From NCBI GenBank assembly GCA_019359435.1, contig JAHHHI010000098.1:1-52533 (forward strand): DNA of 52,533 bases, in the 5' to 3' direction. The stretch comes from Kaiparowitsia implicata GSE-PSE-MK54-09C (GTDB lineage: Bacteria > Cyanobacteriota > Cyanobacteriia > Elainellales > Elainellaceae). Each line of letters opens with the position of its first letter. The stretch's first letter is position 1. Below the pieces are notes generated by a model. That model saw nothing but the letters and a program-made list of their open reading frames with translations. It had not been told where the DNA came from and made no database searches. This document shows positions 17,406 through 24,023 of this stretch, one piece after another. The position numbers were made by a program, and so were the translations under genes.

Positions 17406-19109
17406 ATGATAAACCCAACCATTGCGTTGATTTCGATGGTGACGCAGCAGGCCAAACGCCGCTTCGTCCAAAAGACCCACCACGTGGATCAGTCCCAAAC
17501 CGCATTCTTGCAAACGCTGCTGCACCACCAGCGTTCTACCCAGCTAGCGCAAGCCTTGGGAAGTGACACAATCCGCTCCGTAGATCAGTTCCGCGATTGC
17601 GTTCCTGTGGCGCCCTACGATACGTATCAGCCTTACTTTGAACGGGTTGCTGCGGGTGACCTCGGCGTGGTGACGCCAGACCCAGTGACTTACATCAACA
17701 TGACGAGCGGCTCGACAGGTAAGCAAAAGCTGATTCCTGTGACGAAGCAGTCGCGCCGATTGGTGGCCAAGGCCAACATGGCCGCGATGGGGTTTGGCAT
17801 TGCGGCGGCTCAGCAGCGGGGGCTGCCCTTGGGCAAGTTGCTACCCACTGGCTCGGCACGCACCTTTGGGCATACGGCTGGGGGCATTCCCTTTGGCCCC
17901 GTCAGTGCGGGCGATTTGCGGATGGGCAATCTGCTGTATCGACAGGTGTTTGCCCACCCCTTTGATGTCTTGCAGATTCCCGATAGCGGGGCGCGGCAGT
18001 ATGTGGCGCTGCTCCATGCTTTGCGCGATCCAAACTTGCGGGTGATCGGGGCTAACTTTCCGATTTTTGCGATCAAGTTGGGACAGCAGCTTGAAACCTA
18101 TGCTGAGTCTTTGCTGGATGATCTAGAACGGGGGGCGATCGCCGACTGGCTCCCGCTTGATCCGATGCTGCGGCGCAGACTGGATCGCCAGCTGGTGGCT
18201 GATCCGGTGCGGGCCCGCGAGTTGCGCTTGCGGCTTGCGTCTGCGGGGCGGCTCACGCCTAAACTGGCTTGGCCAGCGTTGTCCTTCATCATCACGGCAC
18301 GGGGAGGCACGTCTAGCTTTTACTTTGAGCAGTTTCCTGACTATTTTGGAGATGTTTCCGTGTTCGGCGGGGTCTATGCCTCTGCCGAGGCCACCTTTGG
18401 GGTTTACCATACCCTCGATCAGGATGGTGCAGTGCTGGCGCTCGACAGCGGTTTTTTTGAGTTTGTGCCACAGGCAGCAGGGTCGGCAGCTCAGACCCAA
18501 ACCTTGCTGCCTACTGAAGTAACTGTGGGCGATCGCTACCGCATTTTAGTTACTAACTATAACGGCCTTTACCGCTATGACAATGGGGATGTGGTGGAAG
18601 TGCTGGGCTTCTATAATCAAGCCCCGATTATCACCTTTTGCCATCGCCGGGGCGGGCTGCTGTCTTCTACGACAGAAAAAACAACAGAGTACCATACCAC
18701 TCAGGTGATGCAGCAGCTTCAGCGCGAGTTTGACCTGCACTTGGTGAATTACTGCATCACCCTGGCTGAGCGAGAGGTGCCGCCGCCCTACGTGTTAAAT
18801 ATTGAACTGTTGGGCGATCGCACACTCCAAAATCCTCAGCGCTTCTTGGCACGGTTTGACGCGATTCTCTCAGACGTGAATGCGTCTTACCATTACAAAC
18901 GGCAGGATGCGGTGCCGCCGCCTCGCCTGCGGATCTTGGCCTCGGGCAGCTTTGCCGCACTGCAGCAGCGTCTCGTCAATCAGGGAATGACCGAGGTGCA
19001 GTTGAAGCAGCCGCATATCAGCGAAGATCGCCAGTTTCTTGCTGGGCTAGAGGTGCTACAAGAGGTGCAGCTAGAGCCGTGCGTGCCACCTACCCTAGCC
19101 TGTCCATAA
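17406..19109 (+). CDS. GH3 family acyl-adenylating enzyme
   Basis: A 567-residue protein of the GH3 auxin-responsive family, part of the adenylate-forming superfamily. Plant GH3 enzymes conjugate acyl acids such as jasmonate or auxin to amino acids through acyl-AMP. The ATP-binding P-loop-like motif is INMTSGSTGKQKLIPVT (about residues 97-113). Later conserved stretches are VFGGVYASAEATFGV and YNGLYRYDNGDVVEV, which carries the Tyr and Asp contacting AMP. A C-terminal cap follows. The substrate cannot be read from the sequence, and no amino acid-handling gene is adjacent. ATG 17406 gives a full-length N-terminus. Confidence 0.92.
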   Translation: MINPTIALISMVTQQAKRRFVQKTHHVDQSQTAFLQTLLHHQRSTQLAQALGSDTIRSVDQFRDCVPVAPYDTYQPYFERVAAGDLGVVTPDPVTYINMTSGSTGKQKLIPVTKQSRRLVAKANMAAMGFGIAAAQQRGLPLGKLLPTGSARTFGHTAGGIPFGPVSAGDLRMGNLLYRQVFAHPFDVLQIPDSGARQYVALLHALRDPNLRVIGANFPIFAIKLGQQLETYAESLLDDLERGAIADWLPLDPMLRRRLDRQLVADPVRARELRLRLASAGRLTPKLAWPALSFIITARGGTSSFYFEQFPDYFGDVSVFGGVYASAEATFGVYHTLDQDGAVLALDSGFFEFVPQAAGSAAQTQTLLPTEVTVGDRYRILVTNYNGLYRYDNGDVVEVLGFYNQAPIITFCHRRGGLLSSTTEKTTEYHTTQVMQQLQREFDLHLVNYCITLAEREVPPPYVLNIELLGDRTLQNPQRFLARFDAILSDVNASYHYKRQDAVPPPRLRILASGSFAALQQRLVNQGMTEVQLKQPHISEDRQFLAGLEVLQEVQLEPCVPPTLACP

Positions 19110-19402: not shown

Positions 19403-20695
19403 CTACCGTTTGCTCGTGCGAAACTGGGTCAAGCTGATGGCCATGGCCGCTAGGGCGATCGCCGTTGCCGCCCCAAACACGACCGTGAGTCCCGCATATT
19501 TCCACAGCGGGCCTAACAGCAACGGACTGGCAAACTGCCCCAGGGAATTGAACCCCGTGCCCAACCCCAGCACGGACGCGCGCAGATGGCTGGGCGACAC
19601 TTCCGCAAGCTGACTGTAGATGTTGGGGGTAATGATGCCAAACCCAATGCCAAATACCACAGCAGCAGGGACAATCCAAACCAGCTGCGTTAAAAACGGG
19701 ATGCTAAACACGGTGGCCGCCATCAGCGCAAACCCTAGGGCGATCGCTCGCTTTACCCCTAAGTGTTTAGCTAGCCAACTAGCCGCCAGCGCTGAGGTAA
19801 TGGCAGCACCCACAGCCCGAATCGCTAGCACCATACCATTTAGCTCTGGGTCTGCACCCAGCACTTCCTTTAAATAGAGCGGTGTGTAAATCACAATGGC
19901 ATACACGACGGTGGCTGCCGCCGCGATTAAGACATAGGAACAAATGACATCTCGCTGCCGCAGCACCTGCCCTAGTTCGCCCTTTGCACCTGTTTCAATC
20001 AGCGTTGAAGCCGAGCGCCGCGAGTTTCGAAACGCCACCAGGCAGACCACCGCCACCGGCAATGATGCCGCATACAAGTAATAGGAAAAGCGCCAGTTCT
20101 CGTTTCCCACCCATCCACCCACCAGCGGGAACATAATAGCTGCAGTGGTCATCGCGCTAGTGGCAAATCCCAGAATGCGCGATCGCGCCTCTCCTTCATA
20201 CATACTGCCTAAAAAGCCAATAGTGGCGGCCGCCACGCCCCCACTCACAATCCCCAACAGCCCCCGCGATGCCAGCAGCGCCGGAAAGTCTGTGAAGAGC
20301 GTTGTTGACACGCCAAATACTGCGTAGAGCACTAAGCACGGCAGCAAAACCTTTAGCTTGCCAATGCGATCGGCCAGCAGACCAAATAGCGGCGTCGCCA
20401 CAGCACTCGTTAAGGCATGGGTGCTGAGCAGCATTCCGGCCCAGCGTTCATCAAGCTGCAACTCTTGCACCATTTCTGGAAACACAGGTGCAACGATGCC
20501 GCCAGTCATGGTGGTCAAGCATCCTGCAATTAGCAGCAGCAAAAACTGCAGGCGGCGCTGCTGCAGGTGGTAGGTCTGTCTAGGTTGACTTGGTTTACTA
20601 ATTACACTCACAATCCATCGCCCAGCACGGTCTCGTCCCTTCCACCATAGGAGACATAGCCGTTGGTCTGGCTTAGCGATAGACATGCAGCCCAA
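19403..20695 (-). CDS. Major facilitator superfamily transporter
   Basis: A protein of up to 430 residues with 12 predicted membrane helices. The first is LLLLIAGCLTTMTGGIVAPV, and the loop 2-3 signature is PLFGLLADRIGKLKVL. The charged central loop (about residues 215-245) separates the two halves. The N-terminal extension before the first helix is poorly conserved: the frame opens at 20695, but a GTG at 20611 or the ATG at 20686 may be the real start. The substrate is unknown; the fold and signature suit drug or metabolite export of the Bcr/AraJ kind. No neighbouring enzyme suggests a substrate. Confidence 0.88.
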   Translation of the reverse strand: MGCMSIAKPDQRLCLLWWKGRDRAGRWIVSVISKPSQPRQTYHLQQRRLQFLLLLIAGCLTTMTGGIVAPVFPEMVQELQLDERWAGMLLSTHALTSAVATPLFGLLADRIGKLKVLLPCLVLYAVFGVSTTLFTDFPALLASRGLLGIVSGGVAAATIGFLGSMYEGEARSRILGFATSAMTTAAIMFPLVGGWVGNENWRFSYYLYAASLPVAVVCLVAFRNSRRSASTLIETGAKGELGQVLRQRDVICSYVLIAAAATVVYAIVIYTPLYLKEVLGADPELNGMVLAIRAVGAAITSALAASWLAKHLGVKRAIALGFALMAATVFSIPFLTQLVWIVPAAVVFGIGFGIITPNIYSQLAEVSPSHLRASVLGLGTGFNSLGQFASPLLLGPLWKYAGLTVVFGAATAIALAAMAISLTQFRTSKR

Positions 20696-20917
20696 CTGTC
20701 CTACGCTAATTCAACTGTCTCACGCCAGTTCTTGAGCTAATACCAGATGGCGCAAGTTCAGCGGCCTAGCAATAGGGACTCAAGACGGGTTCTATCCAAG
20801 AGGCTTATTTTCCTCTAACGTTTTGTAACCTCGTTAACTCAGCTACAATCGGGAACTTTAAACTCCCAAACAATGAGAGTGTAAACAGATGTAAACGCCG
20901 CAACACGGGTGAGACTC

Positions 20918-22657
20918 ATGGCTAAAAAGCCCCGAATTATTGTCTGTGGGTTAGGGCGTGCAGGGCATAAGGTGTTTTGCCTGCTGAAGCAGCAGGGGGC
21001 GGTGGTCGTAGGCATTAACGATCGCCCCTTGCCTCAGCTAGAAGAGGACGTGATCATTGGGGATTTGCGCCAGGCCTCAACCTTGATCAAAGCGGGGATC
21101 AGAGAGGCTGATACTCTGGTGCTTGCGAGCAGCGATGATGCGCTGAATTTGGCGGTGCTGACCCAGGCGCGGGTGCTCAACCCCGATGTGCGGATTATTA
21201 ATCGACTGTTTAATACCAGCTTGGGCGATCGCCTCGACAATACACTGCCCAACCATGTCAGCTTTAGCGTGGCTGAACTAGCAGCCTCGGTGTTTGCGTT
21301 CACCGCATTGGGCAATCGGGCCATTGGGCAGCTCAAGCTCTTTGACCAAACCTGGCCGATTCGCGAAGAAGTGATCGATGCTGACCATCCTTGGCTGGGC
21401 CGCCCGCTCAATAGCCTTTGGGAAGATCGCAACCGCATGTTAATCTACTACCTGCCAGCCGATAGCAGCACTGATCTGATCTCTGCGGTTCTGCATCAGC
21501 AGGTATTGCAGCAGGGCGATCGCCTCATTCTGGCTACGATTCCTCTGGTAAGGAGCGATCGCCGGTCGTCGCGAGAGCGATTGTCGCGGGTTTCAATTTG
21601 GCTGAAACAAATATGGCAGTCTATTGGCTCAACGTTCAGCGTCTTAATATTGCTGATGGTGCTGATCGGGGGGACTACATTTATCTATACCAGCGTTGAT
21701 TTTCGCCATACCTTTGTGGATGCGCTGTACTTTGCAGTGGGCATGATCACCGGGGCTGGCGGCAATGAACAAGTGGTTGAAGATTCGCCCGACTCAATTA
21801 AGGTGTTTACGGTGGTCATGATGCTGTTGGGCACCGGCATCATTGGCATTTGCTATGCATTATTGAATGATCTGGTGCTGGGTACGCGGCTGAAGCAGTT
21901 GTGGCAGGTGGTGCCGCCGCCCCGCCGCAATCATTACATTGTCTGTGGGTTGGGTGGGGTGGGTATTCAAACGGTGCGGCAGTTGCACCACAGCGGCTGC
22001 GATGTGGTGGTGATTGAGCAAGATCCCAACAACCGCTTTTTGAATGCGCTGCGATCGCTCAAAGTGTCCATCATCCATGGCGATGCCAGCCTGCCATCGA
22101 CGCTGCAAGAGGCGCACATCCGAGAGGCCAAGGGGTTGCTTGCCATCACCAGCAACGATGTGATTAATCTAGAAATTGCGCTCACTGCAAAAGGCCTCGT
22201 GCCCAAGCTGCCCGTCGTTGTCCGCAATCAAGATCCTCAGTTTGCGCCCTTGGCGCAGCGAGTCTTTGATTTTGAGGCGGTGCTCAGCCCCGCAGAGTTG
22301 GCCGCGCCATCCTTTGCCGCTGCTGCGTTGGGCGGACGCATTTTGGGCAACGGCATGGCGGGAACCAGCTTGTGGGTGGCGATCGCCACCTTGATCACCT
22401 CCGGGCATCCCTTCTTTGGCAAAACGGTTAAAGATGCGGCGATGGATACTGACTTTGCGCCGCTGTATCTCGAAACAAAATACCGTGCCGTCCACGGTTG
22501 GGAACTGCTAGACAAAGAACTGGTAGCTGGCGATGTGCTCTACCTCACCATGCCCGCCTCTCGGCTCGAACTCCTCTGGCGCGAAGACTTAGCCAAGGCC
22601 GCTGCCCAGCAAGACAGCAGCCTGCTCGACTTCCGCCTGTGGACGATGGATGGATAG
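20918..22657 (+). CDS. Two-RCK ion channel with non-canonical pore filter
   Basis: A 579-residue membrane protein (numbered from ATG 20918; GTG 20909 is possible). Order: an N-terminal NAD-binding RCK/TrkA-N domain (GLGRAGH, about 11-17), helix 1 (about 241-258), a pore loop about 267-285, helix 2 (about 295-322), then a second RCK domain (GLGGVG, about 344-349) with a C-terminal regulatory part. The pore helix FVDALYFAVG is followed by MITGAGGNE in place of the potassium signature TVGYGD. The overall layout is that of potassium channel or TrkA-type proteins. Selectivity is therefore uncertain. GGTGAG precedes the ATG. It stands alone between divergent MFS and the phytase-like gene. Confidence 0.85.
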   Translation: MAKKPRIIVCGLGRAGHKVFCLLKQQGAVVVGINDRPLPQLEEDVIIGDLRQASTLIKAGIREADTLVLASSDDALNLAVLTQARVLNPDVRIINRLFNTSLGDRLDNTLPNHVSFSVAELAASVFAFTALGNRAIGQLKLFDQTWPIREEVIDADHPWLGRPLNSLWEDRNRMLIYYLPADSSTDLISAVLHQQVLQQGDRLILATIPLVRSDRRSSRERLSRVSIWLKQIWQSIGSTFSVLILLMVLIGGTTFIYTSVDFRHTFVDALYFAVGMITGAGGNEQVVEDSPDSIKVFTVVMMLLGTGIIGICYALLNDLVLGTRLKQLWQVVPPPRRNHYIVCGLGGVGIQTVRQLHHSGCDVVVIEQDPNNRFLNALRSLKVSIIHGDASLPSTLQEAHIREAKGLLAITSNDVINLEIALTAKGLVPKLPVVVRNQDPQFAPLAQRVFDFEAVLSPAELAAPSFAAAALGGRILGNGMAGTSLWVAIATLITSGHPFFGKTVKDAAMDTDFAPLYLETKYRAVHGWELLDKELVAGDVLYLTMPASRLELLWREDLAKAAAQQDSSLLDFRLWTMDG

Positions 22658-22850
22658 AGGCGCAGGATCAAGGCAAGCAGTTGGCTTTTGATTGGATTTT
22701 AATTTCGATTGAACTTTAAATAGGGCGCTGACTGAACCCTCACGGATGAACCCTTACGGATGCTGCGTTGCTGCTGTCACGAACTCCCCTTTGCAAACGG
22801 CTCCTTCACCCACCCTTTACTATTAAAGAGTCCTCTGCTTGGCTCTGCTG

Positions 22851-24023
22851 ATGCTTCGTCCTGTGTTGTGGGTGGCGATCGCCCTGATTAGCTTGCTCTC
22901 CCTATCTAGCTGCACACCCGTAAGTGCCGAAGATCGGCTATTTGCGCCGATGAGCCTAGAGTTTTTGGGCGAGTATACGCTGCCGCCCCAGACGGTAGAC
23001 GGTATCCCTGTGGGAGGCTTATCGGCGATCGCCTATGACCGGGCGCGCGATCGCTACTACGCCCTGTCAGACGACAGTTCCCGCGCAGCAGCTCGCTTCT
23101 ATACGCTAAGAATTGACCTCGCATCTGAAGACACCACTCCCAGCATTGCCAACGTGGTCATCGAGAGTGTGACGCGCCTCACCAGTGAGGCCATTCAGGA
23201 ATACACCACCGACAGCCTTGATCCCGAAGGCATTGCGATCACACCGCGCCAAACACTCTACATTGCGACCGAAGGCAGCGCCAGCCAGTCTATTCCGCCT
23301 GCAATTGATGAATTTGATCGGGCGACAGGGCAGCACCAGCGCCGATTGCCCATTCCCCAGCGCTTGGTGCCCCAGACCATTGATGAGCGGTCTTCTGGCG
23401 TAGGAGACAACCTCGGGTTTGAGTCTCTAACGTTGCTTTCGAGCGGCTCAACTGTGGGCAATGGTTCAGGAGATGGCTATGTAGAACCGTTTCGAGTGTT
23501 TGCAGCGATAGAAGCCCCGCTCCAGCAAGATTTACCAGCCGCAAATGCAGACGGCGAGGTGCCGGTGCCCCTGCGGCTGCTGCATTACCTCGTGGCAGAC
23601 GATCGCTCGACCCTGTTGGCTGAGCATCGCTATGATCTCGACCCTGCACCCGATCTCGCCATCGGCAATGGCTTAACGGAGATTTTGGTCTTGGATCAGG
23701 CGGGGCATTTTCTTAGTCTGGAGCGTGCCTATGGGCTATTTGGCTTTAGTGCCACGCTTTTTCAGTTTGTGATTGCCGACGCGACTGATATTTCTGGCAT
23801 TCCCCGGCTGATTGGCGATATCAGCACGATTCAGCCTGTGCGTAAGCAGTTGGCGTTTGCGCTGTCTGACTTGGTGGATCAGGGCATTCGTCTCGACAAT
23901 CTGGAAGGCATGACCCTGGGTGCCCGTTTGCCAGATGGAAGTCAAAGCCTGTTGCTGGTGAGCGACGACAACTTTCGGCCCGAGCAGAGTACGCAGTTTT
24001 TGCTATTTCGCCTACGGATGTAG
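22851..24023 (+). CDS. Esterase-like/phytase-like lipoprotein
   Basis: A 390-residue protein with the esterase-like activity of phytase domain (PF13449 family, a beta-propeller). A lipoprotein signal precedes it, with hydrophobic LISLLSLSSC and the lipobox Cys at about residue 22. Conserved stretches include VGGLSAIAYDRARDRYYALSDD, the LDPEGIAITP segment and, late, LVSDDNFRPEQSTQFL. The family is found widely in bacterial secreted proteins; a phytase reaction is not established. ATG 22851 was chosen over TTG 22839. It follows the channel gene on the same strand at 193 bp. Confidence 0.85.
   Translation: MLRPVLWVAIALISLLSLSSCTPVSAEDRLFAPMSLEFLGEYTLPPQTVDGIPVGGLSAIAYDRARDRYYALSDDSSRAAARFYTLRIDLASEDTTPSIANVVIESVTRLTSEAIQEYTTDSLDPEGIAITPRQTLYIATEGSASQSIPPAIDEFDRATGQHQRRLPIPQRLVPQTIDERSSGVGDNLGFESLTLLSSGSTVGNGSGDGYVEPFRVFAAIEAPLQQDLPAANADGEVPVPLRLLHYLVADDRSTLLAEHRYDLDPAPDLAIGNGLTEILVLDQAGHFLSLERAYGLFGFSATLFQFVIADATDISGIPRLIGDISTIQPVRKQLAFALSDLVDQGIRLDNLEGMTLGARLPDGSQSLLLVSDDNFRPEQSTQFLLFRLRM

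Follow-up and report, generated by a model that had tools for sequence, protein, structure and literature searches.

We have identified a family of channel-like proteins, widespread in cyanobacteria, in which the potassium signature of the selectivity filter is replaced by a different and conserved sequence. The family member described here is encoded in the window, a stretch of 52,533 nucleotides of Kaiparowitsia implicata DNA that was analysed as a whole. Sequence and modelling together establish its order of parts (an RCK domain, a two-helix pore with a re-entrant loop and a second RCK domain), a pore resembling those of NaK, SthK and GsuK, and a filter that is near-fixed across the family as TGAGG-x-[E/D]. 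We propose, with moderate confidence, that the protein forms a tetrameric cation channel, gated through its RCK domains, whose K+ selectivity is altered and probably weak.

Architecture of the protein and its pore

The gene is an intact open reading frame of 582 codons with GTG as its start; an ATG at 20918 lies in frame and could serve instead. Positions 21620-21890, to which the initial annotation drew attention, translate into residues 238-327 and include FVDALYFAVGMITGAGGNEQVVE. The features of the gene, with the evidence for each, are as follows.

20909-22657, forward strand: whole gene, RCK–two-helix pore–RCK channel-like protein, 582 amino acids (ORF listing; orthologs)
20930-21307, forward strand: N-lobe of RCK1 (TrkA_N fold), residues 8-133 (Pfam; model; column counts)
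21326-21538, forward strand: C-lobe of RCK1 (TrkA_C-like), residues 140-210 (Pfam match below cut-off; model)
21620-21697, forward strand: first transmembrane helix (TM1), residues 238-263, within the model helix 221-263 (whole-chain and pore-only models)
21713-21751, forward strand: pore helix, residues 269-281, FVDALYFAVGMIT (both models; conservation)
21749-21769, forward strand: filter TGAGGNE, residues 281-287, replacing TTVGYGD (alignments; conservation)
21791-21877, forward strand: second transmembrane (inner) helix (TM2), residues 295-323, with near-invariant G308 (model)
21932-22333, forward strand: N-lobe of RCK2 (TrkA_N), residues 342-475, with glycine motif and acid E370 (Pfam; model; counts)
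22340-22576, forward strand: C-lobe of RCK2, residues 478-556 (by fold only, from a TrkA match over model residues 8-558)

The Pfam family TrkA_N matches two stretches of the protein, and Ion_trans_2 matches residues 247-321 with 23.7 bits (cut-off 22.5). TrkA_C at residues 152-210 scores 21.3 bits, under its cut-off of 27. Among the 31 members of the family alignment (the window protein and 30 ortholog loci), TrkA_N is matched by all 31 and TrkA_C by 24 (E<=0.01). Together with the models, these matches place one RCK domain before the pore and another after it, as had been proposed, and join them covalently to it, as in RCK-gated channels.

We modelled the single chain with AlphaFold2 on the 31-row alignment (mean pLDDT 80.4). 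The model runs from RCK1 through a helix at 221-263, a pore helix at 269-281, a loop and a helix at 295-323 to RCK2; its pore part is less certain, with block means of 56-76 for residues 231-330. A pore-only model reached a mean pLDDT of 84.6 and has a loop between its pore helix (35-47) and its inner helix (61-100). In both models the filter falls at the predicted pore loop, the outcome that the proposed AlphaFold modelling was meant to examine, and TM1, pore helix, loop and TM2 are predicted to form a two-helix pore with a re-entrant loop.

Comparison of the whole-chain model with known folds ranked TrkA first (Z 26.3; 406 residues at rmsd 4.6, covering both RCK units), followed by KtrA, GsuK (Z 22.5), the ring of CASTOR (Z 20) and MthK (Z 18.9). 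Vibrio TrkA forms the tandem-RCK ring in the TrkH/TrkA K+ system and has two RCK units per chain in the order N1-C1-N2-C2, as does the window protein. TrkA is a soluble protein; the window protein, unlike TrkA, has a two-helix pore between its RCK units, and its best score against the NCBIfam TrkA equivalog is 94.7 bits, against a cut-off of 293. On the model, the layout can be read as that of TrkA with a pore inserted between C1 and N2.

The folds nearest to the pore-only model were NaK (Z 12.2, rmsd 2.7 over 88 residues), SthK (Z 11.7, rmsd 2.2 over 99), which belongs to the bacterial cyclic-nucleotide channels, and GsuK (Z 11.3), and all of the best 50 matches were pore-loop cation channels, although for long helices Z values below about 13 may reflect a common arrangement only. 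Foldseek gave a best E value of 1.3e-3 for this model, with probability 1.00, and no match at E<=0.001. Independently of fold comparison, the pore sequence profile matched NaK-derived pores at about 2e-9 and TRAAK at 7e-10.

Two alignments fix the register of the filter. In the alignment with MthK, GAGGNE stands opposite TVGYGD (I-T-GAGGNE versus I-A-TVGYGD), and an identical register results when a pore profile of 55 rows (the window protein and 54 of 79 located stretches) is set beside the TTVGYGD of a NaK-derived pore. The T-x-G-[YFL]-G sequence of K+ channels is thus absent from its place, in agreement with the initial annotation of a pore lacking the potassium signature. Because the two registers agree, we take Thr75, Val76, Tyr78 and Gly79 (KcsA numbering) to be replaced by Gly, Ala, Gly and Asn, with the middle Gly kept and Asp80 replaced by Glu.

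Conservation and spread of the TGAGG filter

A profile built from the 31-row alignment matched 149 of 291 sampled Cyanobacteriia genomes, about half, at E<=1e-60. Six of these (G339, G386, G393, G412, G433 and G472), with best E values of 1e-65 to 1e-70, may hold paralogs only. Among 40 relatives, the organism's own genome counted, 26 have a copy at an E value below 1e-140, and in a scan of named genomes all 28 loci found were, judged by their titles, cyanobacterial, with 56-70% identity. The expectation that similar proteins occur in cyanobacteria is therefore borne out, and what began as a single-gene oddity is extended to a conserved cyanobacterial family. Two copies are damaged, with the frame of one (L118, G168:C75) broken into two pieces and a stop within the matched stretch of the other (L155, G336:C310); these are possibly pseudogenes or assembly errors.

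Among the 292 genomes searched, three matches at E<=1e-30 came from other classes of the phylum, all with canonical GYG or GFG filters (TTTGYGD or TTTGFGD); one of the three carries a stop inside the matched stretch. Other phyla were covered by a single scan of genome contigs with exact peptide patterns, a weak test of the absence of TGAGG outside cyanobacteria. None of the 32 plasmid records with a match spans 80% of the query, four of the non-cyanobacterial ones having been examined, and the 381 stretches of viral contigs that matched a pattern contained no confirmed copy.

To quantify conservation we used 114 distinct ortholog ORFs and the query, reduced at 95% identity to 104 rows. TGAGG is present in 102 of these, the exceptions being TGAVV at L143 and a fragment of the frame-broken L118 copy. 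Counts over the 102 rows left after removal of the L118 rows revealed a filter that is fixed in some places and free in others. Position 286 is Asn in 54 rows, Lys in 21, Gln in 17, Gly in three, His in two and another residue in five, and position 287 is acidic in 101 (Glu 74, Asp 27), the remaining row, L158, having Ser. Nearby, E291 is Glu in 97 and Asp in two of the 102 rows, K298 is present in all 102, A283 is Ala in 103 of the 104 rows and G308 of the inner helix is kept in 102 of 104. The alignment with MthK places G308 at about what we take to be the position of the gating hinge, MthK G83. The motif is not absolute, since L158 (TGAGGNS) lacks the acid and L143 (TGAVVTD) has TGAVV; both are members of the TGAGG clade described below.

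Mean column entropy is lowest in the pore helix and the filter (0.49 bits each), followed by TM2 (0.97), the N-lobes of RCK1 (1.14) and RCK2 (1.23), the C-lobes of RCK2 (1.33) and RCK1 (1.35), the post-filter segment (1.50), TM1 with its linker (residues 221-263; 2.12) and the turret (2.49). The 18-residue stretch of lowest entropy in the whole protein is the pore loop, residues 270-287 (mean 0.40 bits), and a stretch of RCK2 at about 463-482 is nearly as conserved (0.45 bits). Since the pore loop stands at 0.40 bits against 2.12 for the TM1 stretch, ion handling is favoured over mere anchoring. Such a pattern would not be expected of a pure membrane anchor, although by itself it is no proof of conduction.

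The surroundings of the gene gave no hint of function: across the 28 loci and the window, several of which end at contig ends, we found no widely shared neighbour family, the best occurring at 11 of 29 loci, the window not included. Elsewhere in the window, a 567-residue ORF at 17406-19109 resembles, by eye, a GH3-type (auxin-responsive, adenylating) enzyme, and the sole Rfam match at the gathering score is a 6S RNA (RF00013; 4241-4423, 87.8 bits), far from the channel gene. A promoter scan of 20600-22900 returned one candidate, inside the gene, against 1.6 expected by chance. We found no description of a TGAGG-type filter in the titles and passages of open-access papers (PMC) that our searches covered.

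Ancestry and relation to known channels

We built a tree of 49 rows from the pore and RCK2, in which the TGAGG rows are 15 of 23 picked, eight near-copies having been dropped; Nostocales-like rows are over-represented because some rows were picked up unintentionally by the selection rule. All 15 TGAGG rows fall into a single clade (support 100/99). A second clade (98/91), sister to the first at 92/83, holds a cyanobacterial family with mostly GGYxD filters together with a copy from the organism's own genome (contig C78). The GYG-type rows in the sample fall outside both clades, where the RCK-2TM-RCK proteins of other classes of the phylum (TTTGYGD, TTTGFGD) and 2TM-RCK channels with canonical and variant filters lie. 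Support is weak at the deepest forks (85/62), and the branches of two rows are very long. The simplest reading is that an ancestor with a canonical filter lost the K+ signature and that the loss ended differently in the two families.

Members of the GGYxD family (L141:4975-6957; L060, L061, L063 and L094-L110) share the RCK-2TM-RCK architecture in open frames of 565-798 amino acids. Their filters are mostly LLLGGY[GASD][DN], as in LLLGGYGD, LLLGGYAD, LLLGGYSD and LLLGGYDN, and LLLGQYGE also occurs. They differ from the TGAGG family in having a longer post-filter loop, and identity between the two is about 25-32%. The filter of the own-genome copy (L002:1144-3297, G000:C78) is ruined, reading LLLDSYDALL (LLLDSYDALLDIVG), and this protein is perhaps a non-conducting member.

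Other odd filters also came to light. A Rhodococcus plasmid (NZ_CP142144.1, L134:937-2319) encodes an RCK-2TM-RCK-like protein, annotated as 'NAD(P)-binding protein', whose filter VATVGPAPASHGD is without GYG; its placement in the tree is unsure. Because this actinobacterial protein also lacks GYG, loss of GYG in the RCK-2TM-RCK layout may be recurrent. Among 2TM-RCK proteins, non-standard filters were seen in Hymenobacter (L136:956-2011, annotated as a potassium channel protein; SGGGYEVLRP) and in the organism's own genome (L004:1144-2259; FGVGFGEV). A candidate third channel of that genome, on contig C77, was rejected, being a weak Ion_trans_2 match below the cut-off in an ORF that resembles an ABC solute-binding protein.

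The family resembles MthK and GsuK, which are RCK-gated K+ channels of the 2TM kind, in combining a 2TM pore with an RCK ring and can be aligned with them through pore and RCK (MthK, E 4e-10), but MthK has TVGYGD and an RCK after the pore, whereas the window protein has TGAGG and one RCK before the pore. The closest pore folds are NaK and CNG-mimicking NaK mutants, which are non-selective 2TM pores. NaK has no RCK, and its filter, TVGDG, also departs from TVGYG while keeping T and V; in TGAGG, T, V and Y are altered and the second G is replaced by various residues.

The initial annotation had likened the filter to the GN-containing filters of CASTOR and DMI1, and this likeness does not hold. 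PMC6697748 gives the CASTOR filter as AD265S(A)GNHA, reports that D265N abolished the current, and describes CASTOR as having four predicted transmembrane helices followed by a soluble RCK part and as selective, highly so, for Ca2+ although it is an RCK channel without TVGYG. When the filters are aligned on the shared GN, the essential D265 meets A283 of the window protein, a position that is Ala in nearly every row. The GN pair itself, present in the window protein, is variable across the TGAGG family, N286 occurring in little more than half of the rows. In topology, RCK, two-helix pore and RCK stand against the four transmembrane helices and RCK of CASTOR (layout from PMC6697748). Castor_Poll_mid (PF06241) is absent from the 14 Pfam families that match the window protein at E<=1 and from the 25 families among the matches listed for the 31 TGAGG-family members, and the 59 PDB sequences that the family profile finds at E<=0.01 include no CASTOR chain. 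The proposed likeness rests on one variable residue, and we reject kinship with CASTOR in view of the variable N286, the missing Asp, the different topology and the lack of a Castor_Poll_mid match of the window protein at E<=1. The shared RCK fold is not in doubt, because the CASTOR ring matches by fold, as one of many RCK structures that do; what the window protein has in common with CASTOR, POLLUX and DMI1 is an RCK channel without TVGYG and, at Z 20, RCK rings alike by fold. The TGAGG channel may nonetheless be functionally CASTOR-like in lacking K+ selectivity.

We also considered the K+ channel homologs of Synechocystis. Four genomes of one genus in our sample are presumably Synechocystis (an ORF at L140 resembles a delta-6 desaturase), and from gene order we take clpX and amt to be the neighbours of Sll0536 there; neither was seen, by eye, beside a TGAGG or GGYxD gene in the stretches inspected of these four genomes. 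PMC13099474 (2026) lists, for Synechocystis PCC 6803, five homologs of K+ channels, among them Sll0536, for which it states that functional information is lacking, and reports a KCl test in which the gluR0 mutant alone grew better than the wild type and the other channel mutants.

Proposed gating and ion handling, and alternatives

The RCK domains had been described as NAD-binding, and the two units fare differently. RCK2 keeps a nucleotide-site signature: over 102 rows, G347 is conserved in 102, G352 in 99, D392 in 97 and D417 in 99, and the acid that ends strand 2, E370, is Glu in 99 and Asp in three. RCK1 mostly keeps its GxGxxG glycines but lacks a fixed acid where strand 2 ends, which makes NAD binding at the N-terminal RCK doubtful. 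RCK2 is therefore the likelier putative site for a nucleotide or NAD(H), a preference drawn from general knowledge of Rossmann folds applied to the conserved residues.

The RCK-gated cation channel that we propose would have four chains around a single pore, and the eight RCK units of these chains would assemble into a gating ring like that of TrkA, lying on the cytoplasmic face and coupled to TM1 via RCK1 and to TM2 via RCK2. The RCK2 site would bind a small ligand, for which an adenine nucleotide or NAD(H) is the likeliest candidate, and binding would move TM2 around its hinge at G308. Because Thr75 and Tyr78 are replaced by Gly and the position of Gly79 is variable, the filter would lose its ring of Thr hydroxyls and, at a minimum, the two outer K+ sites; weak or no K+ selectivity is therefore to be expected. 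A ring of acids at E/D287 (and E291) would attract cations, and because the K+ signature is replaced by a conserved sequence of the family's own, passage of ions other than, or besides, K+ is probable. We infer each step, the tetramer, its gating and its selectivity, from sequence and model.

The replaced filter residues can also be compatible with a non-conducting pore. The two helices would then anchor a TrkA-like RCK ring, and the protein would sense nucleotides and regulate some other channel or transporter, much as TrkA, the best whole-chain match, gates TrkH (also the title of reference 37 in PMC5897029). The wrecked filter of the second RCK-2TM-RCK protein in the same genome fits this explanation, as does a single filter substitution in SynK, Y181A (giving GAGD), whose product was expressed but carried no current, according to PMC2853561. 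An anchor, though, would not have to retain filter and pore helix as its most conserved stretch, or a hinge glycine, and the gene neighbours vary and name no partner. We regard a non-conducting sensor as unlikely.

Somewhat less likely again is a channel for divalent cations (Ca2+, Mg2+ or Mn2+), CASTOR-like in action and related to CASTOR only at the level of pore loop and RCK. The near-invariant acids at 287 and 291 would suit such a channel, and CASTOR provides the precedent of a highly Ca2+-selective RCK channel without TVGYG (PMC6697748). Its essential Asp, however, has no counterpart at A283, and the acid at 287 alone predicts little, because ordinary K+ channels also bear Asp at that place, in TVGYGD. 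Least probable, to our minds, is an ordinary K+ channel in which the backbone carbonyls of TGAGG still make enough K+ sites: fold and register are shared with K+ pores and the three relatives found in other classes have canonical filters, but TVGYG is altered at its Thr, Val, Tyr and second Gly, and the last of these positions varies (N, K, Q, G, H and others) as in no K+-selective filter that we know of.

Going beyond the weakly K+-selective cation channel that we favour, we suggest tentatively that the TGAGG family is a widely kept class of nucleotide- or NAD(H)-gated channels proper to cyanobacteria, in effect TrkA rings with a pore built in, whose filter is remade from residues almost devoid of side chains (Gly-Ala-Gly-Gly) and an acid ring. 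Divalent cations, or a mixture of cations, might enter through them, so that ion entry would be linked to the redox or energy state of the cell, and the sister family, with a different remade filter (GGYxD), would have arisen in the same phylum. TVGYG is among the best-known rules of channel biology, and natural departures from it (NaK, CNG channels and CASTOR) have taught much about selectivity. A family with a near-invariant TGAGG and RCK domains flanking the pore, kept in about half of the cyanobacterial genomes sampled, gives nature's own new experiment on the atoms that confer selection for K+.
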